A stretch of DNA of 64,000 nucleotides from Oerskovia douganii (GTDB lineage: Bacteria > Actinomycetota > Actinomycetes > Actinomycetales > Cellulomonadaceae): positions 155,727 to 219,726 of the forward strand of contig NZ_JACSPN010000003.1 of NCBI RefSeq assembly GCF_015142735.1. The letters are read 5' to 3'. Position numbers and translations under genes: made by a program. This document shows, piece by piece, positions 19,537 through 41,805 of the stretch. Numbering within the stretch: the stretch's first letter is position 1; each line of letters begins with the position of its first letter. The notes beneath the pieces were generated by a model, which saw only the letters and a list, made by a program, of their open reading frames with translations, was not told the DNA's origin and searched no databases.

Positions 19537-20841
19537 TCAGCCCCGCCCGGCGGCCCGCCAGGCGGGGCTAACGCGCACCACGTCACCGATCACGGTCACG
19601 GCCGGGGCCCGGACCCCGGCTGCGACGGCGACGTCGGCGATGGTCGCGAGCGTCCCGACGGTCGAGCGCTGGCGCGGGCCGTAGCCGTCCTCGACCACCG
19701 CGACGGGCGTCTCGGGCGAACGCCCCGAGGCCATCAGCGCAGCCGCCGAGTCACGCAGCCGCGAGACGCCCATGAGGAGGATCACGGTGTGGTCGGCCGC
19801 TGCGGGCACCTTGCCGATGTCCTCGTGCCCGGTCAGGACCGTGAAGCCGCGCGAGTGGCCGCGGTGCGTGACCGGGATGCCCACCGCGGCGGGCACCGAG
19901 ACGGCGCTCGTGACGCCGGGGACGACCTCGACGGGGATGCCGTGCTCCTCGCACGCGATGAGCTCCTCCCCTCCTCGGCCGAACACGTACGGATCGCCTC
20001 CCTTGAGTCGTACAACTCGTCGTCCGGCGAGCGCGTGCTCGACGAGGAGCGCGTTGATCTCCTCCTGCGGGACGGGGTGGAAGCCCGGGGTCTTGCCGAC
20101 GTCGATCACGACCACGTCGTCCGCGAGCTCGTCGAGCAGCGCGCGCGGTCCCAGGCGGTCGGTCACGACGACCTCGGCCTGGGCGAGCAGACGACGTCCC
20201 CGCGCCGTGACGAGCCCCGGGTCGCCCGGGCCTCCGCCCACCAGGGCGACGGAGCCGACGCCCCCGTCGGGGACGGGCCGGACGGGCCGCAGCGGCAGCT
20301 CCCCGGTCGAGAGCAGGGCGTCGATCGCGTCCCGGACGCGCTGTGCCCGCCGGGGGTCGCCACCCGCGTTCACGGCCACGACGACCTCGGTGGTGCCCGA
20401 CGCCTGCGCGCCACCCCCCGGACCGACAGCGACCCTGGCCACCGCGGGCACCCAGGCGGTCCCGGCCTCGGCGTCTCCCGCGGCGACGCAGAACACGCGC
20501 AGCGCCTCGGCCTCCGCGGCGATCCCGGCGTCGACCTCGGCCGACCCTGTCGCGGTGTGCACGAGCCACGCGCCCTCGAGGTCACCGGTCCGGAACGCGC
20601 GCGCCTCCCAGGTGACCGAGGACCCGGCCGCGCCGGAACCGTCGGGGCGAGCGACGCCGTCGGGCAGGGGAGGCGCGATCAGCGCGGCGAGGTCCTCGCA
20701 GACCTCCGGGGCCACGACGCGCACGCGCGCACCGGCAGCCACGAGCGAGCGTGCGCGGCGTGCGGCCACGGGGCCCCCGCCCACGACGACCACGAGGCGA
20801 CCCGCGATGCGCAGGCCGAGAGGGTAGAGCTCAGAGTTCAT
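19537..20841 (-). CDS. cysG: Siroheme synthase: dehydrogenase/chelatase-like domain fused to uroporphyrinogen-III methyltransferase
   Basis: Fusion of 434 aa. The N-terminal part (about 1-175) has the NAD site of precorrin-2 dehydrogenase (LVVVVGGGPVAARRARSL). The C-terminal part (about 190-434) is a SAM-dependent uroporphyrinogen-III methyltransferase: ALVGGGPGDPGLVTARG, DVGKTPGFHPVPQEEIN, VVRLKGGDPYVFGRGGEE, EVVPGVTSA, PVTHRG. Together they take uroporphyrinogen III toward siroheme, the cofactor of the sulfite reductase at the head of this operon. It starts 7 nt after the importer permease, so it is the last gene of the sulfur operon. Confidence 0.93.
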   Translation of the reverse strand: MNSELYPLGLRIAGRLVVVVGGGPVAARRARSLVAAGARVRVVAPEVCEDLAALIAPPLPDGVARPDGSGAAGSSVTWEARAFRTGDLEGAWLVHTATGSAEVDAGIAAEAEALRVFCVAAGDAEAGTAWVPAVARVAVGPGGGAQASGTTEVVVAVNAGGDPRRAQRVRDAIDALLSTGELPLRPVRPVPDGGVGSVALVGGGPGDPGLVTARGRRLLAQAEVVVTDRLGPRALLDELADDVVVIDVGKTPGFHPVPQEEINALLVEHALAGRRVVRLKGGDPYVFGRGGEELIACEEHGIPVEVVPGVTSAVSVPAAVGIPVTHRGHSRGFTVLTGHEDIGKVPAAADHTVILLMGVSRLRDSAAALMASGRSPETPVAVVEDGYGPRQRSTVGTLATIADVAVAAGVRAPAVTVIGDVVRVSPAWRAAGRG

Positions 20842-20848
20842 GCGCCCA

Positions 20849-21937
20849 TCATCGCCCGAAAGCGGCGGCAGCCAGCTCGCGCCGGCGCAGCAGCCACCCC
20901 GAGCCCTTGCCGGTCGACGCCGCCCCCGACGTCTCCGGAGCCAGGCCGCGGCGACGCAGCATGGTCTTCTCGACGGGTGCGAAGAAGAGCAGCTCGATGA
21001 CCATGCCGACCACGAGGATCAGCAGGATCGCGGTGAAGACCAGCGCCATGTCGGACAGCTCGCGCCCCTGCTGGAGGAACGCGCCCAGGCCGAACCCGAT
21101 CCCGCCGCCGACCGCGATGATCTCCGCGGCCATGAGCGAGCGCCACGAGAACGCCCAGCCCTGCTTGAGTCCCGCGAGGTAGCCGGGGAACGCCGCGGGC
21201 AGGATCACGTCCTTGATCATCTGGAACCGCCCCGCGCCCAGGACCTGACCCACGCGCCGGTACAGCGGCGGCACCTGGTCCACACCGGACACGATCCCGT
21301 TGATGATCGAGGGCACCGCACCCATGAGGATCACGAAGTACACCGTGGCGTCCGACAGCCCGAACCAGATGATGCCCGCGGGAACCCACGCGACGGACGG
21401 CAGCACCTGGAGGCCCGTGATGATGGGCCCGAACGACACGCGGACCCAGCGCACGCGCGCCACGACGACGCCCAGCGGGGTACCGATCGCGACGGCCGCG
21501 AGGAAGCCCAGGATGCCGCGCTCGAGGCTCGTGCCGAGGGCCTGCCACAGCGTGCCGGACTCGGCGGCGCGCGTGACGGCCGTCCAGACCTGCTCGGGTC
21601 CGGGCAGGTTGTAGATGGGCTGGACCTCGAGCCACACGAGGGTCTGCCAGACCGCGAGCAGGAGCGTGATCGCCAGGACGGGGGGATAGACGGCCCGCCA
21701 GGCCTTGGCCCACCGGCTCGTGGTGGGGGCGACGGTCGTCTGGAGGGCGTCGAGCCCCGCCTCGATGTCGCCGACGTCCTTGGCGTGCCCGACGGCGGCG
21801 CCCGCCTCGCGGGGCACGCTCGCGGAGGGACCGGGCGCACCCGTGCCGGGCGCAGCAGTGCCGGGCGCACCCGTCCGCGACGGGGCCTCGTCGCGCGGGG
21901 GCAGGGTCTCGGCGGTCTTCGACGTCTCAGACGGCAT
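20849..21937 (-). CDS. ABC importer permease (SsuC/TauC type)
   Basis: Membrane permease of 362 aa with about six helices. The BPD permease EAA loop is recognisable (IKDVILPAAFPGYLAGLKQGWAFSW, near residues 255-280). The first 80 residues are a low-complexity Ala/Pro/Gly cytoplasmic extension not usual for the family. The ATG lies 11 nt inside the end of the ATPase gene. The family imports sulfonates, taurine, nitrate or related oxyanions; its place in a cysteine operon favours a sulfur compound. A fusion-free SsuC-like core starts around residue 85. Confidence 0.87.
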   Translation of the reverse strand: MPSETSKTAETLPPRDEAPSRTGAPGTAAPGTGAPGPSASVPREAGAAVGHAKDVGDIEAGLDALQTTVAPTTSRWAKAWRAVYPPVLAITLLLAVWQTLVWLEVQPIYNLPGPEQVWTAVTRAAESGTLWQALGTSLERGILGFLAAVAIGTPLGVVVARVRWVRVSFGPIITGLQVLPSVAWVPAGIIWFGLSDATVYFVILMGAVPSIINGIVSGVDQVPPLYRRVGQVLGAGRFQMIKDVILPAAFPGYLAGLKQGWAFSWRSLMAAEIIAVGGGIGFGLGAFLQQGRELSDMALVFTAILLILVVGMVIELLFFAPVEKTMLRRRGLAPETSGAASTGKGSGWLLRRRELAAAAFGR

Positions 21938-22736
21938 GGCGGCGGATCTCCTCACGGAGGTCGTTGGTGATCTCGGTCGCGAGGCGCGACGCGGCGGCGG
22001 CCTCGATGCTGCGCTGCTCGTCCGCGCCGTACACGTCGACGTCCCACTCGCGCACGATGCGTCCGGGACGCGAGGACATGAGCAGCACGCGCTGCCCGAG
22101 CCGTACGGCCTCGCGGACGTTGTGCGTGATGAACACGATGGTGCGCCCGGTCTGCTCCCAGACGCGCTCGAGCTCGTCGTGCAGCAGGTCGCGCGTGATG
22201 GCGTCGAGCGCCGCGAAGGGCTCGTCCATGAGCAGGACGTCCCGCTCCTGGGCGAGCGAGCGCGCGAGTGCGACACGCTGGCGCATGCCGCCCGAGAGCT
22301 CGTGGACGCGCTTGTCGCCCGAGCCGTCGAGCCGCACGAGCGTGAGCAGCTCCGCGGCCCGCTCACGACGCTCCGCACGCGGGACGCCGCGGAACTTCAG
22401 GGCGAGCTCGATGTTGCGGCTCGCCGTGAGCCAGGGGAACAGCGCGGACTCCTGGAACATCAGGGCCGCGCCGCCCCCGGCGACCTCCACGTCCCCCGTG
22501 GTGGGGCGCTCCAGACCCGCGACGATGTTGAGCAGCGTCGACTTGCCGCAGCCGGAGGCTCCGAGCAGGCAGACGAACTCGCCCTGCGCGATGTCCAGGT
22601 CGATCCCCTCGAGCACCGGGGCGCCGTCGGGGGAGAACCGCTTGGACACGCCGCGCAGGCGGACACCGGTCGTCGGAACGGCGTCCTCTCCGAGGCCGGA
22701 CGGGGTGCCCGTGCGGGCGGGGGACGTGGTGGTCAT
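21927..22736 (-). CDS. ABC importer ATP-binding protein (SsuB/TauB type)
   Basis: ATPase of 269 aa with all motifs intact: Walker A LLGASGCGKSTLLNIV, Q-loop LMFQESALFPWLT, signature [16 protein letters not shown], Walker B VLLMDEPFAALD and switch His FITHNVREA. It powers the importer formed with the flanking permease and lipoprotein genes. It starts 4 nt after the binding-protein stop. The nitrate/sulfonate/taurine subfamily is indicated by FPWLT and by DEPFAALDAITR. Confidence 0.92.
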   Translation of the reverse strand: MTTTSPARTGTPSGLGEDAVPTTGVRLRGVSKRFSPDGAPVLEGIDLDIAQGEFVCLLGASGCGKSTLLNIVAGLERPTTGDVEVAGGGAALMFQESALFPWLTASRNIELALKFRGVPRAERRERAAELLTLVRLDGSGDKRVHELSGGMRQRVALARSLAQERDVLLMDEPFAALDAITRDLLHDELERVWEQTGRTIVFITHNVREAVRLGQRVLLMSSRPGRIVREWDVDVYGADEQRSIEAAAASRLATEITNDLREEIRRHAV

Positions 22737-22740
22737 GGTG

Positions 22741-23868
22741 CTACTCCTTGCCGAGACCTGCGGCGGAGACGGTCGGCTGACCGGCCTCCTTCAGCACCTT
22801 GTTGAGGAGGCTCAGGTCGTAGATGCCGTTCAGGTCCGCCTCGGTCGTGGTCCCGGCGGTCACGCCGTCCTCGAGCAGGGTGTTCAGCGTGCCCGCGAGC
22901 GGGTCGGTCGTGAACGTGATGTTGGTGAAGGCGCGGTCCAGGACCGCGTCGGACAGCGGCTTGCCGGCGATCTTCTCGATCTCGCCGTTGACGAGGGTCT
23001 TGGCGTCGTCCGGGTTGGCGCCGATCCAGTCGATCGCCGCGACCTCGCCGCGCAGGAGCGCCTCGACTGTCTCCGGGTGCTCCTCGAGGAAGTCGGTGCG
23101 GACGATCAGGTGCGTCGTGAGGAACTCACCGTCGTCCCACAGGTCCTTCTCGTCGACCAGGACGTGGGCGCCGGCGTCGAGCACGAGGCGCGAGGCCCAG
23201 GGCTCGGGCAGCCAGCCGCCGTCGAGCTCGCCGTTCTGGAACAGCGTGAGGGTCTGTGCGTTCTCGGTCGGGGTGACCGCGACGTCCCCTCCGCCCTGGA
23301 TGTCGTTCTCGAGGCCGTTCTCGGTGAGCCAGGCGCGCAGCGCGACGTCCTGGGTCCCTCCGAGCTGGGGTGAGGCGATCTTGGTGCCCTTGAGGTCGGC
23401 CGCGGTGTCGATGCCCTCGCGCACGACGAGCTGTGCGCCCCCCGACGTCGAGCCCGCGACGATGCGCACGGCCTCGCCGCCCGACTTCACGAAGTTGTTG
23501 ATCGCGGGGTTCGGGCCGATGAACGTGGCGTCGATCGCGCCCGCGTTGAGGGCCTCGATCGCGGCGGGGCCGGCGTTGAAGACCTGGGTCGAGAGCGTGG
23601 TGTCGCCCAGGGCCTCCTCGAACTGGCCGCCCGCGACCCCGACGAGCGCGGGGGCGTGGGTGACGTTCGCGAAGTAGCCGAGGCGCAGCTCCTCGGCCGG
23701 GCCCGACGACGCGGCCGGGCCGTCGGCGGCGTCGGACGTGCCCGTCGAGCAGGCGGCGAGCAGGAGCAGCGGCGCGACGGCGAGCGCGGCGACGGCGGAG
23801 CGCGCCCGCGTGGAGCGTCGGGACGTGCCGGCTCGGGTGGTGCGGGTCGGGCGGGACGAGGTGTTCAT
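22741..23868 (-). CDS. ABC importer substrate-binding lipoprotein (SsuA/NMT1 type)
   Basis: Lipoprotein of 375 aa: a long basic N-terminus, a hydrophobic core, and lipobox LLAAC near residue 43. The mature domain has the SsuA/NrtA/ThiY-like pattern: LRLGYFANVTHAPALVGV, AGAIDATFIGPNPAINNFV, LKGTKIASPQLGGTQDVALR, and NGELDGGWLPEPWASRL. GAAGGAAA precedes the ATG. Neighbours (cysN upstream, importer genes downstream) point to a sulfur-containing ligand such as sulfonate, sulfate or thiosulfate. The family also includes nitrate and pyrimidine binders, so the ligand is unproven. Confidence 0.87.
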   Translation of the reverse strand: MNTSSRPTRTTRAGTSRRSTRARSAVAALAVAPLLLLAACSTGTSDAADGPAASSGPAEELRLGYFANVTHAPALVGVAGGQFEEALGDTTLSTQVFNAGPAAIEALNAGAIDATFIGPNPAINNFVKSGGEAVRIVAGSTSGGAQLVVREGIDTAADLKGTKIASPQLGGTQDVALRAWLTENGLENDIQGGGDVAVTPTENAQTLTLFQNGELDGGWLPEPWASRLVLDAGAHVLVDEKDLWDDGEFLTTHLIVRTDFLEEHPETVEALLRGEVAAIDWIGANPDDAKTLVNGEIEKIAGKPLSDAVLDRAFTNITFTTDPLAGTLNTLLEDGVTAGTTTEADLNGIYDLSLLNKVLKEAGQPTVSAAGLGKE

Positions 23869-23996
23869 GGAGTTTCCTTCGGAAGGGTCGGTGGTTGCCT
23901 GGCGGTGGACGTGTCGTGTCCCGGCAGCGCCGATCCGTGCGGTGCGCGATCCGAGGGCCCGGTGTCCGGGCCCCGCCTGCGGTGGTCGGGTGGACC

Positions 23997-25397
23997 TCAG
24001 ATCGCGTACTGCACGGGACGCTGCGAAGGACATCGCACGGCCGCCAGGGCGTCTCCGACCATTCCTGCTGCGAGGGTGCCGCCGTCCTGACCGTCGATCA
24101 GGAGGAAGGCACCGGTGCGGCGCGAGGTGACGTACTCCTCGGCCGCGACGGGGGAGGCGAGGCGCAGCGTGACGCGCCCGATGTCGTTGAGGTCGAGCGT
24201 CTCCGCGGGCTCGAGCTCGGCGGTGTCCAGGTCGAGGCGCCCGACGACGTCGCGCACCACGGCCTGCACGGTCCGGGTCGTGTGCTTGAGCAGCACGCGC
24301 GTGCCGGGACGCAGGGTCTTGTCGCTGAGCCACGCGACGGTGCCCTCGATGTCCTGCGTGACCTGCGGGGCGTCGGCTGCGGCCGCGAGGAGGTCGCCGC
24401 GGGCGATGTCGATCTCGTCCGCGAGGCGGATCGTCACGGACTGGGGGGCGAACGCCTCGGCGAGGGTGCCGTCGGCCGTGTCGATGCCCTCGACCGTGGT
24501 CCTCTTCCCGCTGGGCAGGACCACGACTTCGTCGCCCACGCGGACCACGCCCGAGGCGATCTGCCCGGCGTACCCGCGGTAGTCGCGGAAGCGCTCCTCG
24601 AGCGCCGCGCCCTGGGGACGCAGGACCACCTGGACGGGGAAGCGGAACGCCTCGGTGTCCGGGGTCTGCGCCGCAGGGAGCTCCTCGAGCAGGTCGAGCA
24701 GGCTCGGCCCGCCGTACCAGGGGGTCTTGCCGTCCGGTCCGCCCGAGCGGTCGACGACGTTGACGCCCTCGAGCGCCGAGACGGGCAGCGTGAGGACGTG
24801 CGCGACGCCGAGCGAGGCCGCGGCCTCGCGGATCTGGTCGGCGAGCTCCTCGTAGCGCTCCTGGCTGTAGTCGACGAGGTCGATCTTGTTGACGGCCACG
24901 ATCACGTGCGGCACGCGCAGGAGGCTCGCGACCGCGAGGTGGCGGCGCGTCTGCTCCAGGAGCCCCTTGCGGGCGTCGATGAGGAGCACGACGACGTCGG
25001 CCGTCGACGCGCCGGTCACGGTGTTGCGCGTGTACTGCACGTGCCCGGGGCAGTCGGCCAGGATGAACGAGCGCCTGGCGGTCGCGAAGTAGCGGTAGGC
25101 GACGTCGATCGTGATGCCCTGCTCGCGCTCGGCGCGCAGGCCGTCGGTCAGCAGGGCGAGGTCGGCCGTCGCGAGGCCGCGGTCGCGCGAGACGCGCTCG
25201 ACCGCGTCGAGCTGGTCGGCGAGCACGGACTTGGAGTCGTAGAGGAGCCGGCCGACGAGCGTCGACTTGCCGTCGTCGACCGAGCCGGCGGTCGCGAGGC
25301 GCAGCAGGGTGCTCGTGGGGAGGACCTGGGGCTCGCCGGCGGTCCCGGTGGGCAGGGTGGTCTCGTCGGGCAGCGGGTGCGTGGTGGCGGCGCTCAC
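23997..25397 (-). CDS. cysN: Sulfate adenylyltransferase subunit 1 (GTPase)
   Basis: GTPase subunit of 466 aa that drives APS formation with CysD. G1 GSVDDGKSTLVGRLL, the switch region DGLRAEREQGITIDVAYR, G3 DCPGHVQYTRN and G4 NKIDLVD are all present, followed by EF-Tu-like beta domains. It has no C-terminal APS kinase domain, unlike the CysNC fusion of mycobacteria. This fits the APS-type reductase in the operon, which needs no PAPS. The GTG start shares one base with the cysD stop (TAGTG). A 128-bp gap separates it from the importer genes. Confidence 0.96.
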   Translation of the reverse strand: MSAATTHPLPDETTLPTGTAGEPQVLPTSTLLRLATAGSVDDGKSTLVGRLLYDSKSVLADQLDAVERVSRDRGLATADLALLTDGLRAEREQGITIDVAYRYFATARRSFILADCPGHVQYTRNTVTGASTADVVVLLIDARKGLLEQTRRHLAVASLLRVPHVIVAVNKIDLVDYSQERYEELADQIREAAASLGVAHVLTLPVSALEGVNVVDRSGGPDGKTPWYGGPSLLDLLEELPAAQTPDTEAFRFPVQVVLRPQGAALEERFRDYRGYAGQIASGVVRVGDEVVVLPSGKRTTVEGIDTADGTLAEAFAPQSVTIRLADEIDIARGDLLAAAADAPQVTQDIEGTVAWLSDKTLRPGTRVLLKHTTRTVQAVVRDVVGRLDLDTAELEPAETLDLNDIGRVTLRLASPVAAEEYVTSRRTGAFLLIDGQDGGTLAAGMVGDALAAVRCPSQRPVQYAI

Positions 25398-26422
25398 TAG
25401 AAGTACCCCTCCTTCTTGCGGTCTTCCATGGCGGCTTCGGAGATCCGGTCGTCGGCGCGCGTGGCGCCGCGCTCGGTGATGCGGGTCGCTGCGACCTCGG
25501 TGATGACGTCGTCGACCGTGTAGGCCGTGCTCTCGACGGCGCCCGTGCACGACATGTCGCCCACGGTCCGGTAGCGGACGGTCTCGGTGCGCACGTCCGC
25601 GGCCTCGGCGTCGTTGCGCGGCCGGGAGTACGGCCCGACGGCGAGGAGCATGCCGTCGCGCTCGAAGACCTCGCGCTCGTGCGCGTAGTACAGGCTGGGC
25701 AGGTCGATCTTCTCGGCCGCGATGTAGCGCCAGATGTCGAGCTCGGTCCAGTTGCTGAGCGGAAAGGCGCGGACGTGCTCGCCCGGGCGGTGGCGACCGT
25801 TGTACAGGTTCCACAGCTCGGGGCGCTGGTTGCGCGGGTCCCACTGGCCGAACTCGTCGCGGAGCGAGATGACGCGCTCCTTGGCGCGGGCCTTCTCCTC
25901 GTCGCGGCGGCCGCCGCCGAACACGGCGTCGAACTTGTGCCCCGTGATGGCGTCGAGCAGGGGCTGGGTCTGGAGGGGGTTGCGCGTGCCGTCGGCGCGC
26001 TCGAGCAGGCGCCCGTCGTCGAGGTAGTCCTGGACGCTCGCGACCTCGAGGCGGGCGCCGAGGCGCTCGACCGTGGCGTCGCGGTACTCCAGGACCTCGG
26101 GGAAGTTGTGACCCGTGTCGACGTGCAGCAGCGCGAACGGCACGGGGGCGGGCCAGAACGCCTTGGTCGCCAGGTGCAGCATGACCACGGAGTCCTTGCC
26201 GCCGCTGAACAGCAGCACGGGGCGCTCGAACTCCGCGACGACCTCGCGGATGATGTGGATGGCCTCGGACTCGAGGGACTCGAGCTGGGTCAGGCGGTAG
26301 GTGGGGGAGGCAGGTGGGGCGAGGGGGGCGGTCAAGGCGTCGCTCTTCTCGTCGGGGTGCGTGGGGTGGTCGTCCGGCACGTCGGTGTGCACCGTCCGGT
26401 GGTGCGTGGTCGCGGCGCTCAT
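25397..26422 (-). CDS. cysD: Sulfate adenylyltransferase subunit 2
   Basis: PP-loop ATP pyrophosphatase of 341 aa that converts sulfate and ATP to APS with CysN. Motifs: LLFSGGKDSVVMLHLA, HVDTGHNFPEVLEYRD, VFGGGRRDEEKARAKERV, FPLSNWTELDIWRYI, and the conserved end MEDRKKEGYF. An N-terminal extension of about 40 residues rich in His, Asp and Pro precedes the usual start (YRLTQLESLESEAI). The ATG overlaps the cysH stop by 4 nt, so the genes are coupled. Confidence 0.97.
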   Translation of the reverse strand: MSAATTHHRTVHTDVPDDHPTHPDEKSDALTAPLAPPASPTYRLTQLESLESEAIHIIREVVAEFERPVLLFSGGKDSVVMLHLATKAFWPAPVPFALLHVDTGHNFPEVLEYRDATVERLGARLEVASVQDYLDDGRLLERADGTRNPLQTQPLLDAITGHKFDAVFGGGRRDEEKARAKERVISLRDEFGQWDPRNQRPELWNLYNGRHRPGEHVRAFPLSNWTELDIWRYIAAEKIDLPSLYYAHEREVFERDGMLLAVGPYSRPRNDAEAADVRTETVRYRTVGDMSCTGAVESTAYTVDDVITEVAATRITERGATRADDRISEAAMEDRKKEGYF

Positions 26423-27324
26423 GCGTGGAGCCCGCACTCTGTCTTGTCGAGCCCGGCCCAGCGGCCTGCGCGCGGGTCCTCGCCGGGGGCGACGCGGCGC
26501 GTGCAGGGCGCGCAGCCGATCGACGGGTACCCGTCGTTGAGCAGCGGGTTGAGGATCACCTGGTGGTCGGCGGCGTAGCCGAGCAGGTCGTCGAAGGACC
26601 AGGCGGCGAGCGGGTTGATCTTGACCAGCCCGTTCTTCTCGTCCCAGGTCACGAGCGGGGTGCTCGTGCGGGTCGGGGCCTCGTCGCGGCGCACGCCCGT
26701 GACCCAGACCTCGTACCCGCCGAGCGTGCGGGTCAGGGGTTCGACCTTGCGCATCGCGCAGCACGCGGCGGGGTCCCGTGACCAGAGGTCCTTGCCGTGC
26801 GCCTCGTCCTGCTGGGCGACGGTGAGCCGGGGCAGGACGTCGACGATCGTGACCTCCATCTGCTGCTCGACGGCGTCGCGTGTGCCCGAGGTCTCGGGGA
26901 AGTGGTAGCCGGTCTCGAGGAACAGGACGTCGACCCAGGGCGCCTGCTGCGCGACGACGTGCGGCAGGACCGCGTCGGCCATGGAGCACGCGACCGCGAT
27001 CGAGTCGCCGAACTCGCGCACGGCCCACGCGACGACCTGCTCGGCCGTCGCCTCGTCGGTGGCGCCCAGACCGGAGCCGTGCAGCTCGGCCTGCCCGCGC
27101 TCGACGATCGCGCGCAGCTCGTCGGCCGACCGCTTGGGCCGGGTGCTCGCGGCCCGCCGGGCGGCGTGGGCGGCCTGGGACGCGGCGCGGGCCTCGGTAC
27201 GGGCCTTGGCGGCGGCGCGCAGCGCGGCGAGCGGGTCGTTGCCCGGCGTGGTGACCGGTGTGCCCGACGACGCAGCGCCCGTCGGGTGCGTGCGGTCGCC
27301 CGGGGGCGTGGTCGTGGCGCTCAT
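26419..27324 (-). CDS. cysH: Adenylylsulfate (APS) reductase, [4Fe-4S] type
   Basis: Reductase of 301 aa that makes sulfite from APS and thioredoxin. Iron-sulfur ligands are visible as the pair in DPAACCAMRKVEP and the CxxC in SIGCAPCTRR; this CC...CxxC set marks APS rather than PAPS reductases. The catalytic Cys is in the conserved C-terminal KTECGLH. PP-loop-like elements include FLETGYHFPET and VTGVRRDEAPTR. An Ala-rich N-terminal extension of about 65 residues is unusual. No cysC (APS kinase) lies nearby, which agrees with direct APS reduction. Coupled by 4-nt overlaps to sir and cysD. Confidence 0.95.
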   Translation of the reverse strand: MSATTTPPGDRTHPTGAASSGTPVTTPGNDPLAALRAAAKARTEARAASQAAHAARRAASTRPKRSADELRAIVERGQAELHGSGLGATDEATAEQVVAWAVREFGDSIAVACSMADAVLPHVVAQQAPWVDVLFLETGYHFPETSGTRDAVEQQMEVTIVDVLPRLTVAQQDEAHGKDLWSRDPAACCAMRKVEPLTRTLGGYEVWVTGVRRDEAPTRTSTPLVTWDEKNGLVKINPLAAWSFDDLLGYAADHQVILNPLLNDGYPSIGCAPCTRRVAPGEDPRAGRWAGLDKTECGLHA

Positions 27325-29117
27325 CGCAGCGACTCCTCGTCCGCGCGGTGCGCCCACTGGGCGAAGCTCTCCGTGCCGTCCTTCTCCTTCTCGAACTGGC
27401 GCACGACGCGCTCGACGTACTCGGGGAGGTCGTCGTTGGTGACCTTGAGGCCGCGCACGGTCCGGCCGAGGCCTGCCTCGGCACGGTCGTCGGAGGTCAG
27501 GCCGCCGCCCAGGTGGACCTGGAACCCGGGGACCTGGTTCCCGTCGTCGTCCATCACGAGCTGCCCCTTGAGCCCGATGTCGGCGGTCTGGATGCGGGCG
27601 CACGAGTTGGGGCAGCCGTTGATGTGCAGCGAGAGCGGCTTCATCGCGGAGAGGTCGCCGAGGCGCTTCTCGAGGTCGTCGATCGCGCGGGTCGCGGCGC
27701 CCTTGGTCTCGACGATCGCGAGCTTGCAGTACTCGATGCCCGTGCACGCGATCGTGCTGCGGCGGAACGGGCTGGGGTTCGCGTCGAGACCCTGCTCCTT
27801 GAGCCCGGACACGACGCGCTCGAGGTGCTCGTCCGGGACGTCGAGCACGAGCAGCTTCTGGTGCGGGGTGAACCGCACCCGACGCGACCCTGCCGACTCG
27901 GCGAGGTCCGCGACGGCCGCGAGGATGCTGCCGGAGACGCGACCCACGTAGGGGGCCGCGCCGACGTAGTTGAGGCCGTCCTTCTGCTTGTGCACGCCGA
28001 CGTGGTCCCCCGGCTGGGAGGGCTGCGGGGCGGGCGGGCCGTCAGGCAGCGCGTAGCCGAGGTACTCGGTCTCGAGGACCTCGCGGAACTTCGCGGGCCC
28101 CCAGTCGGCGAGCAGGAACTTCAGGCGGGCCTTGTTCCGCAGGCGACGGTAGCCGTAGTCGCGGAAGATCTGGACGACCCCGTGCCACACGTCGGCGACC
28201 TGCTCCTCGGTCACGAACGCACCGAGGCGCTCGCCGAGGCGCGGGTTCGCGGACAGACCGCCGCCGACCCACACGTCGAACCCGACGCCGAGCTCGGGGT
28301 GCTCGAGCGCGACGAAGCCCACGTCGTTGATCTCGTGGACGACGTCCTGGGACGGGTGGCCCGTGACGGCGGTCTTGAACTTGCGGGGAAGGTTCGCGAG
28401 CTCGGGGACGCCGATGTACTTGTCGGTGATCTCCTTGATGACCCGGGCGGGGTCGATCAGCTCGTCGGCCGCGATCCCGGCCACGGGGCTGCCCAGGACG
28501 ACGCGCGGCACGTCGCCGCACGCCTCGGTCGTCTGCAGGCCCACGGACTCGAGCCGGCGCCAGATCTCGGGGACGTCCTCGACCTCGACCCAGTGGAGCT
28601 GGATGTTCTGGCGGTCCGTGATGTCGGCGCTGTCGCGGCCGAAGTCGCGCGAGATGTCGGCGATGACGCGCAGCTGCTCGGTCGTGACCGCGCCGCCGTC
28701 GATGCGGACGCGGAGCATGAAGTACTTGTCCTCGAGCTCGTGCGGCTCGAGCTGTGCGGTACGCCCGCCGTCGATCCCGGGCTTGCGCTGCGTGTACAGG
28801 CCCCACCAGCGGAAGCGTCCGTGCAGGTCGTCGCCCGTGATGGAGTCGAACCCCTCGCGCGAGTAGACGTCCTCGATGCGCTGGCGCACCGAGAGGCCGC
28901 CGTCCTCCTGCTTCCACTTCTCGTTGCCGTTGAGCGGTTCCTTGCCGTCGACGGCCCACTGGCCGTTGGGCCGGGCCGCGCGTGCGGGGCGGGCCGGACG
29001 CGCGGGGGGCGCGGCGGCGTCGGGCGCCTGCGGTGAGGGCTCGCCGGCGGGTGTGCTGCTGCCGGCCTGCTGACCGGCGACCGGGGTCGCGTCAGTGGCG
29101 GTGTTCGGCGGCGTCAT
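27321..29117 (-). CDS. sir: Ferredoxin-dependent sulfite reductase
   Basis: Siroheme/[4Fe-4S] reductase of 598 aa that takes sulfite to sulfide. Two half-domains of the nitrite/sulfite reductase repeat are present. Cluster and siroheme ligands are in TIACTGIEYCKLAIVETKG and LHINGCPNSCARIQTADIG. The first 60 residues are a Pro/Ala/Arg-rich extension before NGQWAVDGKEPLN. It is the first full-length gene of the sulfur operon. AGGAG lies 8 nt before the ATG, and a 143-nt leader separates it from the polycysteine leader peptide. The nearby fdxA could supply electrons (inference). Confidence 0.95.
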   Translation of the reverse strand: MTPPNTATDATPVAGQQAGSSTPAGEPSPQAPDAAAPPARPARPARAARPNGQWAVDGKEPLNGNEKWKQEDGGLSVRQRIEDVYSREGFDSITGDDLHGRFRWWGLYTQRKPGIDGGRTAQLEPHELEDKYFMLRVRIDGGAVTTEQLRVIADISRDFGRDSADITDRQNIQLHWVEVEDVPEIWRRLESVGLQTTEACGDVPRVVLGSPVAGIAADELIDPARVIKEITDKYIGVPELANLPRKFKTAVTGHPSQDVVHEINDVGFVALEHPELGVGFDVWVGGGLSANPRLGERLGAFVTEEQVADVWHGVVQIFRDYGYRRLRNKARLKFLLADWGPAKFREVLETEYLGYALPDGPPAPQPSQPGDHVGVHKQKDGLNYVGAAPYVGRVSGSILAAVADLAESAGSRRVRFTPHQKLLVLDVPDEHLERVVSGLKEQGLDANPSPFRRSTIACTGIEYCKLAIVETKGAATRAIDDLEKRLGDLSAMKPLSLHINGCPNSCARIQTADIGLKGQLVMDDDGNQVPGFQVHLGGGLTSDDRAEAGLGRTVRGLKVTNDDLPEYVERVVRQFEKEKDGTESFAQWAHRADEESLR

Positions 29118-29259
29118 CGTGCTCCTCGTGGGGGGACGTGGGCACGCGGGCCGAAGGGCTCAGCAGGAACGAGGGGGCTGAGGGCCGACCACGCGCGCCC
29201 TTGGCTCAGGAAGGTGGCGAGCGGTCGGCGAGGACGGCTCGGGCTGAGTCAGGCGCGGG
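29118..29259 (-). promoter_or_regulatory. Putative cysteine attenuator leader of sir
   Basis: Leader RNA between the leader-peptide stop and sir. On the minus strand four short segments alternate: CTCAG (29244-29248), CTGAG (29205-29209), CTCAGC (29177-29182) and GCTGAG (29159-29164). Segments 1:2, 2:3 and 3:4 can each pair, the layout of a classical attenuator. The 2:3 pairing extends with GGGC/GCCC. The pairings are only 5-8 bp, so the fold is suggestive, not proven. Confidence 0.5.
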
Positions 29260-29346
29260 TCAACAACAACAGCAGGAGCTGTTGCGGGCGCAGGCCGTCG
29301 ACCCGTGACGTGCCGTCACGAGGAGGAGGTGCGCTGCCGTGGTCAT
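29260..29346 (-). CDS. Polycysteine leader peptide (28 aa)
   Basis: Short frame of 28 codons starting MTTAAHLLLVTARHG and ending ARNSSCCCC before TGA. The last four sense codons are TGC-TGT-TGT-TGT, and a fifth Cys lies nine codons from the end. A -10 box TAGCGT ends 7 nt before the ATG, so the message is probably leaderless. It sits upstream of sir-cysH-cysD-cysN. Leaderless polycysteine small ORFs that act as cysteine attenuators are known in mycobacteria. By analogy the ribosome would stall here when Cys-tRNA is scarce and open the operon. The peptide itself probably has no other function. Confidence 0.8.
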   Translation of the reverse strand: MTTAAHLLLVTARHGSTACARNSSCCCC

Positions 29347-29353
29347 GGCGGGA

Positions 29354-29359
29354 ACGCTA
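29354..29359 (-). promoter_or_regulatory. -10 box of the sulfur operon
   Basis: On the minus strand TAGCGT ends 7 nt before the ATG of the leader peptide, placing the transcription start at that ATG. A TGTTCA sequence 17 bp upstream (29377-29382) is a possible weak -35. Confidence 0.5.
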
Positions 29360-29478
29360 CAGAGGCAGCGGGTGAATGAACACCCCCTGTCCGCATGGTG
29401 GATGGGTGTCTCAGGTTCTGGCTGCGAACCGCCGGGCGGGCAACACGCGGAGCTTTTCCGACAGTCGCGTCAGCAAAC

Positions 29479-31939: not shown

Positions 31940-34591
31940 ATGACATCGCTCTTCGAGAACCTGCCGCTGCCCGGATTCGACCTCGCGTCCCTCGGGGACT
32001 CGTCGCGCCTGCCGACCACCGCACCGCGGTGGGACGAGGCGCCCGACGGCGGCACGTCCGGCCGCGCGAAGGCCCGCACCGGGCGCGGCTCGTCCGAGCC
32101 GGCGGGTGGCGACGGGAACGGTCGCCGCGACGGGCGGGACGAGGCGGGGCAGCACCCGGGCGGGTTCTCGCACATCGACCCGGACTCGCTGCTCGACGGC
32201 ATGAACCCGCAGCAGCGCGAGGCCGTCGTGCACGCCGGCAGCCCGCTGCTGATCGTCGCGGGCGCGGGCTCGGGCAAGACGCGTGTCCTGACGCACCGCA
32301 TCGCCTACCTCCTCGCGACGGGCAGGGCACGGCCGGGCGAGATCCTCGCGATCACCTTCACCAACAAGGCGGCGGCGGAGATGCGTGAGCGCGTCGAGGC
32401 GCTCATCGGTCCCGCGGCCCGGTACATGTGGGTCTCGACGTTCCACTCGGCGTGCGTGCGGATCCTGCGCAAGGAGGCCGCGGCGCTCGGGCTCAAGTCG
32501 AGCTTCTCGATCTACGACGCCGCGGACTCCCAGCGGCTCATCACGCTGGTGAGCCGCGAGCTCAACCTCGACGTGAAGAAGTACCCCGCGCGGACGCTGT
32601 CCAACAAGATCTCGGACCTCAAGAACGAGCTGATCGACCCGGAGCGCTACGCGCGGGAGAGCGGCGCGTCGGCCGCCGACGGCTCGGCCAACGCGTTCGA
32701 CCAGGTCCTCTCGGACGTCTACACGCGCTACCAGGCCCGCCTCGCGCAGGCCCACGCGCTCGACTTCGACGACATCATCATGACCACGGTCAACCTCCTC
32801 CAGGCGTTCCCGGCCGTCGCGGAGCACTACCGCCGCCGGTTCCGGCACGTGCTGGTCGACGAGTACCAGGACACCAACCACGCGCAGTACGTCCTGGTCC
32901 GCGAGCTCGCGGGAGCGGGCGCCCCGGAGAGCGAGGACGGAACGTGGGCGCCCGGCACCGTCCCGCCCGGCGAGCTCACGGTCGTCGGTGACGCCGACCA
33001 GTCGATCTACGCCTTCCGCGGCGCGACCATCCGCAACATCCTCGAGTTCGAGGCCGACTACCCGAACGCCCGGACCATCCTGCTCGAGCAGAACTACCGC
33101 TCGACGCAGAACATCCTCTCGGCCGCGAACGCCGTGATCTCGCGCAACATCGACCGCAAGCCCAAGCGCCTGTGGACGGACGCGGGTGCGGGCGTCAAGA
33201 TCATCGGCTACGTCGCGGACAACGAGCACGAGGAGGCGCGCTTCATCGCCGAGGAGATCGACCGCCTCGGGGACTCGGACGGCGTGCGCCCGGGCGACGT
33301 CGCGATCTTCTACCGGACCAACGCCCAGTCCCGCGCGCTCGAGGAGGTGCTGATCCGCGTCGGCCTGCCGTACAAGGTCGTCGGTGGCACGCGCTTCTAC
33401 GAGCGGCGTGAGATCAAGGACGCGATCGCGTACCTGCGCGCCATCGCGAACCCCGACGACGACGTGAACCTGCGGCGCATCCTCAACGTGCCCAAGCGCG
33501 GTCTCGGCGACCGGGCCGAGGCGCTCGTCGCGGCGTTCGCCGAGCGCGAGCGCATCTCGTTCGCCGCGTCGCTCGACCGCGCCGAGGAGATCCCGGGCAT
33601 GACGACCCGGACCCTCAACCCGCTGCGCACCTTCCGCGAGCTGTTCCACGGGCTGCTGGACCTGTACGCCACGGGCGCGACGCCCGCCGAGATCCTGGGC
33701 GCGGTCCTCGACCGCTCGGGCTACCTCGCCGAGCTGCGGGCCAGCGACGACCCGCAGGACGGCTCGCGCGTCGAGAACCTCGCCGAGCTGCACGCGGTCG
33801 CGAGCGAGTTCACCGAGCTCGAGCCCGAGGGCACGCTCACGGACTTCCTGGAGCGGGTCTCGCTCGTCGCGGACTCGGACCAGATCCCGTCGAGCGACGA
33901 CGAGGGGCACGAGGGCAAGCCCGTCGTCGACCCGGGCGTCGTGACGCTGATGACGCTGCACACGGCCAAGGGGCTCGAGTTCCCCGTGGTGTTCCTCAGC
34001 GGCATGGAGGACGGCACGTTCCCGCACATGCGCTCGCTGCACGACGAGAGCGAGCTCGCCGAGGAGCGACGCCTCGCGTACGTCGGCATCACGCGCGCCC
34101 GGGAGCGGCTGTACATCTCGCGCTCCGCGGTGCGCTCGGCGTGGGGCATGGCCAACGAGTTCCCGCCCAGCCGGTTCCTCGACGAGATCCCCGAGGACCT
34201 GTGGGACTGGCGCCGCAAGGAGTCGTCCATGGCGACCCTGCGCGGGCCGGGCGGCTACACGGGCGGGTGGGGCTCGTCGGCGGGCGGCTCGCGCGGCGGG
34301 TCGGGCTCGTCGTCGGGCGGGTACGGGTCGGCTGGCTCGCGCAACGGGCAGGTGCGCACGCGCTCGGTCACACCCAACCCGGACGGCCCCAAGTTCGGCT
34401 CGGCGACGCCGCGCAAGGAGGGGGACATCCCCTCGCTCGCGATCGGCGACAAGGTCACGCACGACGCCTACGGGCTGGGCACGGTCGTCGCGGTCGAGGG
34501 CGCGGGCGCCAACGCGGTCGCCAAGATCGACTTCGGGGCCGACGGCACCAAGCGGCTCCTGCTGCGGTTCTCGCCCGTCACGAAACTATGA
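31940..34591 (+). CDS. pcrA: UvrD/PcrA-type DNA helicase
   Basis: Superfamily 1A helicase of 883 aa for repair and for clearing replication conflicts. After a disordered N-terminus of about 75 residues come the Q-motif region LLDGMNPQQREAV, Walker A AGAGSGKTRVLTHRIAYLL, VDEYQDTNHAQYVL, GDADQSIYAFRGA, QNYRSTQNIL, and TLHTAKGLEFPVVF. A Gly/Ser linker (about 765-800) leads to a Tudor-like end ([20 protein letters not shown] to FSPVTKL) that binds RNA polymerase in related helicases. The last 166 bp before the final codons recur at 36254-36419. The last five codons here (GTC ACG AAA CTA TGA) differ synonymously from the duplicate (GTG ACC AAG CTG TAG), so this end was supplied by the inserted segment. 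Confidence 0.95.
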   Translation: MTSLFENLPLPGFDLASLGDSSRLPTTAPRWDEAPDGGTSGRAKARTGRGSSEPAGGDGNGRRDGRDEAGQHPGGFSHIDPDSLLDGMNPQQREAVVHAGSPLLIVAGAGSGKTRVLTHRIAYLLATGRARPGEILAITFTNKAAAEMRERVEALIGPAARYMWVSTFHSACVRILRKEAAALGLKSSFSIYDAADSQRLITLVSRELNLDVKKYPARTLSNKISDLKNELIDPERYARESGASAADGSANAFDQVLSDVYTRYQARLAQAHALDFDDIIMTTVNLLQAFPAVAEHYRRRFRHVLVDEYQDTNHAQYVLVRELAGAGAPESEDGTWAPGTVPPGELTVVGDADQSIYAFRGATIRNILEFEADYPNARTILLEQNYRSTQNILSAANAVISRNIDRKPKRLWTDAGAGVKIIGYVADNEHEEARFIAEEIDRLGDSDGVRPGDVAIFYRTNAQSRALEEVLIRVGLPYKVVGGTRFYERREIKDAIAYLRAIANPDDDVNLRRILNVPKRGLGDRAEALVAAFAERERISFAASLDRAEEIPGMTTRTLNPLRTFRELFHGLLDLYATGATPAEILGAVLDRSGYLAELRASDDPQDGSRVENLAELHAVASEFTELEPEGTLTDFLERVSLVADSDQIPSSDDEGHEGKPVVDPGVVTLMTLHTAKGLEFPVVFLSGMEDGTFPHMRSLHDESELAEERRLAYVGITRARERLYISRSAVRSAWGMANEFPPSRFLDEIPEDLWDWRRKESSMATLRGPGGYTGGWGSSAGGSRGGSGSSSGGYGSAGSRNGQVRTRSVTPNPDGPKFGSATPRKEGDIPSLAIGDKVTHDAYGLGTVVAVEGAGANAVAKIDFGADGTKRLLLRFSPVTKL
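34413..34578 (+). repeat. Direct repeat, pcrA 3' end, left copy
   Basis: 166 bp matching 36254-36419 with three substitutions and no gaps. It encodes the Tudor-like C-terminus of PcrA. It bounds the foreign segment on the left. Confidence 0.95.
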
Positions 34592-34682: not shown

Positions 34683-36131
34683 ATGGCACAGAAGCCCCCG
34701 CCCTTGAAGACGCTTGACTTCGGTCACCTCGATGCGGCGAGTGAAGCGATCGAAGAACCTCGACTCCTGATCGAGGGATTCTATGACTATAAAGGTGCTG
34801 CGTCCGGGATTGCTACCGGGCAAAATTGGCTGCTGCTCGGACCGAAAGGGTCTGGGAAATCAGCAGCCCTGGAACATCTTCGTCTGCTTTGGAAATCGTA
34901 TCCCGATTCCTTCTTTGACTATTGGGACTTAAGAAGCTTCCCCGTCAATGACGTCACATCAATCCAAATGGGTCAATCGGCTGGGGCGTCGCGCGCGCAG
35001 TCGGCGTGGGAATTTCTCCTGCTTCTCCGGATCATCCGATCCATAGATCTTGACAACGGGAAGAGTGCGCCGCGTTCATTCTCGGAACTCTTTACCGAGC
35101 TTTCGCGTGCCGGCTTGCTCCAGAGTGACTGGCGTGCGAATGTAGCGAAATGGTCAAAGAGTGCCTTCAAGGTCGACCTGAAAGTGGTGGGGGTTGAGTC
35201 CGAGCGGGTGGTTCGAGAGTACAGTCCTCTAGAGTTGGTTGCCGCAATGAAGGCGATCGTCGCTGGCGTTTCTACCGAAAGTCGGCACGTCGTTGCACTC
35301 GATGGTCTCGATTCTTTCTTTTTCGAAACTGAGGATGAGTGGAGCTCGCTGAGTGGGCTAATGTATGCAATCTCCTCGATAAACCAGTTCATGAGAACGC
35401 ACGAGTTGCGCATCTCGGTCGTCGCGGCTGTGCGGTCGGACATTTACGATGTTCTGCCTGGCGGCGATCTTAACAAGTTGAAACCATACTCGGCGACTCT
35501 GGACTGGAGTGCACAGGGGATCGGTTCAGCGAACCATCTTTGGACGCTTCTTAACTCAAAGGTTGCGGTTAGGCATCCCGAGGTTCGAGATGTTGTGAAG
35601 ACCTACCTTGCTGCGCCTGTGGCCATCTGGCCTCACCGGGAGCTTACAGAGTACTTGTTGGACTATACGCGGTTGCTTCCGCGCGACCTCATTGCATTAA
35701 TGGGGTATGTGCAAAGAGCCTACGGCGGCACGTCCCTGGTTCCTGAATCATCGGCAAAGGAGGCGGTGCGGCGTTATTCGGAGGAGTACTTCGTCGGGGA
35801 AGTGCTGGATAATTTGGCAGGTGTGCTAGGGGCTGACAGGGCACGTGAGTTGGCTTCTTTTCGCGATGTGATGCGTACGCTGCCTACCAGGACGTTCAAG
35901 TTTGACGATGTTGTTTCTGAACTCGAAGGCGAATTGGATCGTCGGGAGGTCAAGCTCCTCCTGAAACAAATGTTCGACACCGGGGCTATTGGGATCAGGA
36001 ATAGTTCGGGTAAGCATAAGGATTATTTTGATTTTGTGTTCCGAAAGGTGTCTGGTGCTGGATTTACGATTCGACACACCTTCCTGCTTCACAATGCGCT
36101 CGCGCTTGCTTGGAATCGACCGCGGGCATGA
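34683..36131 (+). CDS. P-loop ATPase of an accessory insertion (Sll1717-like), possible defence gene
   Basis: Protein of 482 aa with a single NTPase domain: Walker A LLGPKGSGKSAALEHL (GPKGSGKS at 53-60), Walker B HVVALDGLDSFFFETEDEW (Asp 207), and a downstream Arg motif VVAAVRSDIYDVL (about 247-258), like the sensor region of Orc/STAND/KAP-type ATPases. A helical region (310-400: TRLLPRDLIALMGYVQRAYGG) precedes a C-terminal winged-helix-like part (405-455: FKFDDVVSELEGELDRREVKLL). It resembles proteins named P-loop ATPase, Sll1717 family, by motif layout; I could not search. Codon use is foreign, rich in T/A-ending codons. The horizontally acquired, solitary setting fits a phage-defence or stress ATPase, but function is unknown. 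Confidence 0.7.
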   Translation: MAQKPPPLKTLDFGHLDAASEAIEEPRLLIEGFYDYKGAASGIATGQNWLLLGPKGSGKSAALEHLRLLWKSYPDSFFDYWDLRSFPVNDVTSIQMGQSAGASRAQSAWEFLLLLRIIRSIDLDNGKSAPRSFSELFTELSRAGLLQSDWRANVAKWSKSAFKVDLKVVGVESERVVREYSPLELVAAMKAIVAGVSTESRHVVALDGLDSFFFETEDEWSSLSGLMYAISSINQFMRTHELRISVVAAVRSDIYDVLPGGDLNKLKPYSATLDWSAQGIGSANHLWTLLNSKVAVRHPEVRDVVKTYLAAPVAIWPHRELTEYLLDYTRLLPRDLIALMGYVQRAYGGTSLVPESSAKEAVRRYSEEYFVGEVLDNLAGVLGADRARELASFRDVMRTLPTRTFKFDDVVSELEGELDRREVKLLLKQMFDTGAIGIRNSSGKHKDYFDFVFRKVSGAGFTIRHTFLLHNALALAWNRPRA

Positions 36132-36253: not shown

Positions 36254-36432
36254 GCAAGGAGGGGGACATCCCCTCGCTCGCGATCGGCGACAAGGTCACG
36301 CACGACGCCTACGGGCTCGGCACGGTCGTCGCGGTCGAGGGCGCGGGCACCAACGCGGTCGCCAAGATCGACTTCGGGGCCGACGGCACCAAGCGGCTCC
36401 TGCTCCGGTTCTCGCCCGTGACCAAGCTGTAG
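36254..36432 (+). pseudogene. Displaced original 3' end of pcrA
   Basis: 58 codons in the same frame as the PcrA tail, from [12 protein letters not shown] to FSPVTKL and TAG, with one Ala-to-Thr change. The helicase body is absent. The high-GC sequence downstream leads straight to the sucC promoter, so this is most likely the ancestral pcrA end left behind when the segment inserted. An upstream GTG would give a 74-aa frame with an unrelated start; no ribosome site is evident. Confidence 0.85.
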
Positions 36433-41713: not shown

Positions 41714-41719
41714 CGGAGG

Positions 41720-41805
41720 CGGCCGCGACTGGCGAGGGTGGGAACGACCACCGGGGAGCGTCCGAGAGACCTGTTGGTGCGTCGTCCGCCTGGGCGCCTG
41801 GGTGA
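41720..41805 (+). promoter_or_regulatory. ZTP riboswitch (pfl motif)
   Basis: The conserved blocks of the ZMP/ZTP aptamer occur in order: GCGACTGGCGAGGGTGGGAA, then CCACCGGGGAGCG, then a variable linker, then CCGCCTGGGC, the pseudoknot strand. The site lies 43-128 nt before purH, whose enzyme consumes ZMP (AICAR). High ZTP signals low folate and should raise purH expression. No clear terminator separates it from the ATG, so control at translation is as likely as at transcription. Confidence 0.9.

Follow-up and report, generated by a model that had tools for sequence, protein, structure and literature searches.

In a classical trp-type attenuator, the leader carries codons for the product of the pathway, and the position of the ribosome chooses between mutually exclusive RNA pairings. 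Actinobacterial examples of this attenuator have been described, and cys leader peptides were predicted in 2005 in Mycobacterium, Propionibacterium acnes and Bifidobacterium longum (cbs) (Seliverstov et al. 2005, PMC1262725). No conserved hairpins were reported for the cys leaders in that study, and the attenuator elements were called missing (PMC1262725). In mycobacteria, conserved leaderless small ORFs with clustered Cys codons were first noted by ribosome profiling (PMC4633059). Leaderless ORFs of this group that carry adjacent Cys codons regulate the downstream genes through a ribosome speed that depends on Cys (PMC9031893, PMC13236596, PMC4633059), and Cys-dependent attenuation has been demonstrated in M. 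smegmatis (Canestrari et al. 2020, as cited in PMC9031893, PMC13236596 and PMC13091356). The initial annotation of the locus described here took leaderless polycysteine ORFs to be cysteine-responsive attenuators in mycobacteria, and the literature agrees with it (PMC9031893, PMC13236596, PMC4633059).

The window, the 64,000-nucleotide stretch of Oerskovia douganii DNA that was analyzed, contains a comparable ORF of 28 codons (MTTAAHLLLVTARHGSTACARNSSCCCC and a stop codon, 29346..29260 (-)), identified by its sequence and its conservation in relatives. It lies between a divergent membrane-protein gene (29491, plus strand) and sir (29117, minus strand), with a gap of 142 nt to sir. The end of the peptide, S-S-C-C-C-C-stop, had been recognized in the initial annotation and is read directly in the frame. 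The four Cys codons are TGC TGT TGT TGT (29263..29274 (-)), a Cys-rich end that is kept in relatives, and an extra Cys codon, Cys19, is found at 29292..29290 (-). As was also first noted, the ATG stands just after a -10 element, TAGCGT (29359..29354 (-)), which is 7 nt ahead of it. This spacing is kept in relatives, whose leaders have TAnnnT and ATG separated by 6–8 nt, mostly 7. Judged from the promoter spacing, transcription would start at the A of the ATG.

The small ORF is the first ORF of a sulfur operon that comprises sir, cysH, cysD, cysN and, probably, SsuA-type ABC genes and cysG; the four genes sir-cysH-cysD-cysN that the initial annotation had placed downstream were all found on the same strand. 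The sir gene (27321..29117 (-)) encodes a protein of the ferredoxin-type nitrite/sulfite reductase family (NIR_SIR) and is preceded by the ribosome-binding site region CACGAGGAG (29122..29130 (-)). It is followed by cysH for (P)APS reductase (26419..27342 (-)), cysD for the small subunit of sulfate adenylyltransferase (25397..26440 (-)) and cysN for the large subunit (23997..25400 (-), start approximate). The genes for an SsuA-family substrate-binding protein, an ABC ATPase and a permease (20849..23871 (-), starts approximate) are probably part of the operon, as is probably also a gene for a siroheme synthase of the CysG/CobA type, which supplies Sir with its cofactor (19537..20841 (-)). With this gene content, the cassette spans sulfate activation, reduction, the sulfite reductase cofactor and, probably, sulfonate uptake. 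Elsewhere in the window, the terminal 175 bp of a UvrD/PcrA helicase gene are present twice, at 97% identity (34413..34587 and 36254..36428 (+)), and the two copies flank a 482-aa ORF (34683..36131) that has no Pfam or PADLOC match. The arrangement suggests that an insertion entered pcrA at its 3' end and restored the end of the gene.

The pattern TGYx4-TGA occurs once in the whole 4.25-Mb genome, and the reversed-pattern control does not occur. The pattern TGYTGY(TGY or CGN)TGA has 21 sites genome-wide; a leaderless start is present only at the site of the small ORF, and no second polyCys leader was found among these candidate sites. A strict filter was defined by TAnnnT, a spacing of 6–8 nt, ATG or GTG, a length of 8–60 codons and a Cys-rich end. 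Applied to both strands of the whole window, it returned the small ORF as the sole match; 392,720 nt of control strand gave a single match. Chance alone does not account for the small ORF and its Cys run. The 28-aa peptide matched no family among the NCBIfam models at E up to 1.

Of 48 species in the same GTDB family, 29 have a leaderless Cys-ended small ORF upstream of sir by the strict filter, with 2–5 Cys within the last six residues; with a looser -10 the leader was found in 34 of the 48. About one-third of the family species with sir have no recognizable Cys leader. Leader-bearing genera include Oerskovia, Cellulosimicrobium, Sanguibacter, Luteimicrobium, Sediminihabitans, Paraoerskovia and Promicromonospora. 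The strict filter had no match upstream of sir in 18 species of other families, and Arthrobacter and the Microbacteriaceae lack the leader, the sir leaders of Arthrobacter, Microbacterium and Cryobacterium showing no conserved Cys ORF. A covariance model that spans the last five codons of the small ORF through the sir start matched 52 of 150 family genomes, with one match per genome among the matches listed, and 10 of 297 genomes across the order. All 32 held-out loci from this model that were inspected have a leaderless Cys-ended ORF with sir downstream; because the Cys codons were part of the model, what this result adds independently is the start codon, the -10 and the gene behind. One leader copy is present per genome, and it is at sir in every locus checked. 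The ORF ends differ yet stay Cys-rich (CCCC, CCR, CRCC, CCC, CCCCC, CCRSCQL), and the N-terminal residues vary between relatives. A variable N terminus together with Cys codons at the end of the ORF fits selection on the codons, not on the whole protein. Conservation of the Cys run in relatives was the point on which the initial annotation had staked its proposal, and the run proved to be conserved (29/48 strict, 32/32 held-out).

Other small ORFs are also found before sir. Loci L138, L139, L140, L142, L143 and L147 have Cys-rich small ORFs with a looser (C/T)AnnnT -10 and mostly GTG starts, in which several residues follow the Cys run (CCCPRSN, CCCPRIA); these are likely a second version of the same cysteine sensor. 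In other families of the order, loci L132, L135 and L118 have a different class of leader peptide upstream of sir, with the pattern (R)RHVDLxRTRSxIC or RRYVDLMRVQSAYCC.

Hairpin P0, CUCGUGACG-GCA-CGUCACGGG, identified by covariation, lies inside the ORF at nt 25–45 (29302..29322 (-)), and a hairpin at this location is formed in many leaders. Its stem shows compensating variants (CTCGTGAC/GTCACGAG, CTCACGAC/GTCGTGAG, GCACGACG/CGTCGTGC and CCCACGGCC/GGCCGTGGG). Among 30 distinct sequences, there were 27 double-changed cells as compared with 8.3 ± 2.0 in shuffles, and the covariation score was 0.332 versus 0.157, a value that none of the 500 shuffles and none of the slid versions reached. Such scores are inflated by related sequences, and the slid controls preserve the relatedness. 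Selection at P0 is on base pairing.

Three conserved elements follow the stop codon. Element A, CGCGCC (29252..29257 (-)), begins 3 nt past the stop codon; element B, GGGCGCGCG (29192..29200 (-)), is complementary to both A and C; and element C, CGCGUGCCC (29140..29148 (-)), ends 22 nt before the sir ATG. In relatives, element B is GGGCGCGCG or similar and element C is CGCGYGYCC or similar. In 24 of 24 leaders, A lies a few nt past the stop codon, B is at +24 to +69 and C ends 19–30 nt before the sir ATG, and in most of these leaders A finds its best partner in B or in the arm immediately preceding it. The A:B and B:C pairings are mutually exclusive and conserved. Neither B:C nor the hairpin within it covaried more than shuffles; the pairs are nearly invariant, so they gain no extra support from covariation, and in one species both sides are changed, with A-U in place of G-C. 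With B:C covariation no higher than in shuffles, it is conservation and geometry that make an A/B/C RNA switch a likely companion of the leader. The leader in the window is much more structured than its shuffles (z of -5.1), and the mean z over 24 leaders is -2.2. When 31 spacers were aligned with MAFFT and the raw alignment was given to RNAalifold, almost no structure emerged, owing to differences in spacer length. The leader matched no Rfam family at the gathering threshold. The only Rfam match in the window, a ZMP/ZTP riboswitch aptamer (RF01750, 49 bits), is located away from the leader at 41715..41802 (+).

Judged from its sequence features, the leader very probably attenuates the sir-cysHDN(-ssu-cysG) operon by a ribosome-mediated response to cysteine. 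The scheme that follows is inferred as regards translation, stalling, switch direction and output. Transcription from the AUG would put a ribosome on the small ORF of each transcript. When Cys-tRNA is ample, this ribosome would reach the stop codon with its footprint over element A; with A covered, B would pair with C just ahead of the sir ribosome-binding site, and expression would be low. When Cys-tRNA is scarce, the ribosome would stall at the Cys codons, and A would be free to capture B; with B taken by A, C would be released and expression of the sir operon would be high. One guess is that P0 makes RNA polymerase pause, giving the first ribosome time to keep pace. A ribosome at the stop codon would have A within its footprint, and one stalled at the Cys run would leave A uncovered. 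When a stalled, queued ribosome is modeled, A:B forms with a mean probability of 0.70 and B:C with 0.18; a ribosome placed at the stop masks A, which sets P(A:B) to 0 by construction, and gives a mean P(B:C) of 0.36. The fuller reading, in which the family has its own cysteine attenuator with a real, conserved three-way RNA switch formed by P0 and the ribosome-read A/B/C, acting on the sulfate-to-sulfide operon without a terminator or simple SD masking, is held tentatively, at a little under an even chance.

By analogy with mycobacteria, the most likely output would be the initiation of sir translation, which we judge to be about evenly balanced between true and false; Rho-type premature termination comes second to it, as a plausible but distinctly less probable output. 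No intrinsic terminator (hairpin plus T run) was found between the leader and sir. In the window, opening the sir ribosome-binding site costs 17.6 kcal/mol without a ribosome, 13.4 with a ribosome at the stop and 9.1 with a stalled ribosome, and in the minimum-energy fold the SD is paired with the Leu-Leu-Val codons of the small ORF (CUCCUCGUG, 29317..29325 (-)), which are complementary to the sir ribosome-binding site. This opening pattern was not seen in close congeners. When opening costs were obtained by partition-function calculation for 38 leaders with shuffled-spacer controls, the mean stop-minus-stalled difference was -0.3 kcal/mol versus +0.3 for the shuffled spacers, which is not the predicted direction. 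As the costs showed no shift from those of shuffled spacers in the predicted direction, general unmasking of the SD on stalling was rejected and is not claimed as the mechanism. As a candidate anti-SD, the Leu-Leu-Val codons have a z of about -2 to -3 in Cellulosimicrobium; they were rejected as a family mechanism, the pairing being good in Oerskovia and Cellulosimicrobium only and absent elsewhere. The initial annotation had proposed that the mycobacterial device operates here in a different actinobacterial family. For the sensor this proposal stands (29/48, 32/32); for the output it is tentative. SD sequestering is suggested by the window's own fold but is inconsistent across relatives.

The Rho-type output can be set out as a separate reading that keeps the same sensor: the C-rich stretch past the stop would load Rho, or RNA polymerase would abort, once the ribosome leaves, and a stalled ribosome together with A:B would prevent this. 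The composition of the spacer (47% C, 28% G; C/G at least 1.37 in 38 of 38 distinct leaders) is in its favor, as are the lack of an intrinsic terminator between the leader and sir, the lack of general support across leaders for unmasking of the ribosome-binding site and the fact that Rho was proposed earlier for mycobacterial cys leaders (PMC1262725). However, the sir coding start is almost as C-rich as the spacer (46% C, 31% G), so that composition is weak evidence for Rho, and the tested mycobacterial case is described as translational (PMC13236596). On balance, this reading seems rather unlikely. Covariation in P0 and the strong conservation of A, B and C as RNA could also be accounted for by a structured RNA that binds a metabolite or a protein, with the small ORF and its Cys run as mere passengers. 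We regard this as very unlikely, because the nucleotides at the ORF end differ and yet the frame, the spacing of the start and the Cys codons at the end persist, and the leader lacks an Rfam match at the gathering threshold. An action of the peptide in trans, e.g. as a Cys-rich metal- or redox-binding microprotein, would be in keeping with a conserved ORF that has up to five consecutive Cys at its C terminus, but has very little probability: apart from its Cys run, the peptide shows little conservation from one genus to the next, and it lacks an NCBIfam match, selection at P0 is on pairing, and the ORF is in cis before sir in all loci checked.

Control could instead be exerted at the promoter. 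A palindrome of the form CC-N7-GG (TCCACCATGCGGAC, 29389..29402 (-)) has its center ~50 bp upstream of the putative start site and adjoins a poor -35. CC-N7-GG is present in 39 of 39 distinct leaders listed, at a near-fixed distance from the -10 (29 leaders at one offset, 6 at the next and the remainder within one base or so), and it has 28 matches genome-wide versus 14 for the reversed pattern. The palindrome is a probable operator, and its location ~50 bp upstream beside a poor -35 suggests a site for an additional transcription factor in an activator-like position. If a factor that binds the palindrome were responsible for all of the control and the contribution of the ORF were small, the conservation of the ORF, Cys run, P0 and A/B/C would be left unexplained; we find such promoter-only control highly improbable, and the two layers can coexist.

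As a ribosome-mediated cysteine attenuator, the preferred reading, the leader resembles the trp-type attenuator in its pathway-product codons and would do so in its predicted exclusive A:B and B:C pairings but differs in having no intrinsic terminator or U-tract and an apparently leaderless start. With the mycobacterial polycysteine ORFs, it shares contiguous Cys codons near the stop and a position as the first ORF before sulfur/cysteine genes, and probably also a leaderless start, to judge from the promoter spacing. It is unlike them in its host, the Cellulomonadaceae (in the GTDB sense), in its target sir-cysHDN, in the covarying hairpin within the ORF and in the conserved A/B/C; furthermore, only one such ORF of this form was found in this genome, and sequestration of the ribosome-binding site is not conserved. 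The actinobacterial cys leaders predicted in 2005 likewise have Cys runs near the stop, sulfur genes and no terminator, but no conserved hairpins were found for them (PMC1262725), in contrast to the conserved competing elements and covarying hairpin found here. The uORFC-8-2 motif before cysS in Rhodobacterales also combines a small ORF, tandem Cys codons and RNA structure, but it differs in its intrinsic terminator with a U run, its tRNA-synthetase target, its alphaproteobacterial hosts and its two mid-peptide Cys codons (PMC8632094). The kind of sensor is already known; the host family, the target operon and the RNA architecture are new. No description of the leader in Oerskovia or its relatives was found in the open-licence literature searched, and as the search was limited to open-licence papers this missing description is weak evidence.

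Before, the other parts of the attenuator had not been found (PMC1262725), and the tested cases were mycobacterial only; here, the sensor is in another family. An RNA model now offers a way to find this 28-codon leader, which the searched protein-family models do not cover. The family has the sensor ahead of the whole sulfate-assimilation pathway, and its conserved RNA parts and the dozens of naturally occurring variants make the mechanism directly testable by mutation.
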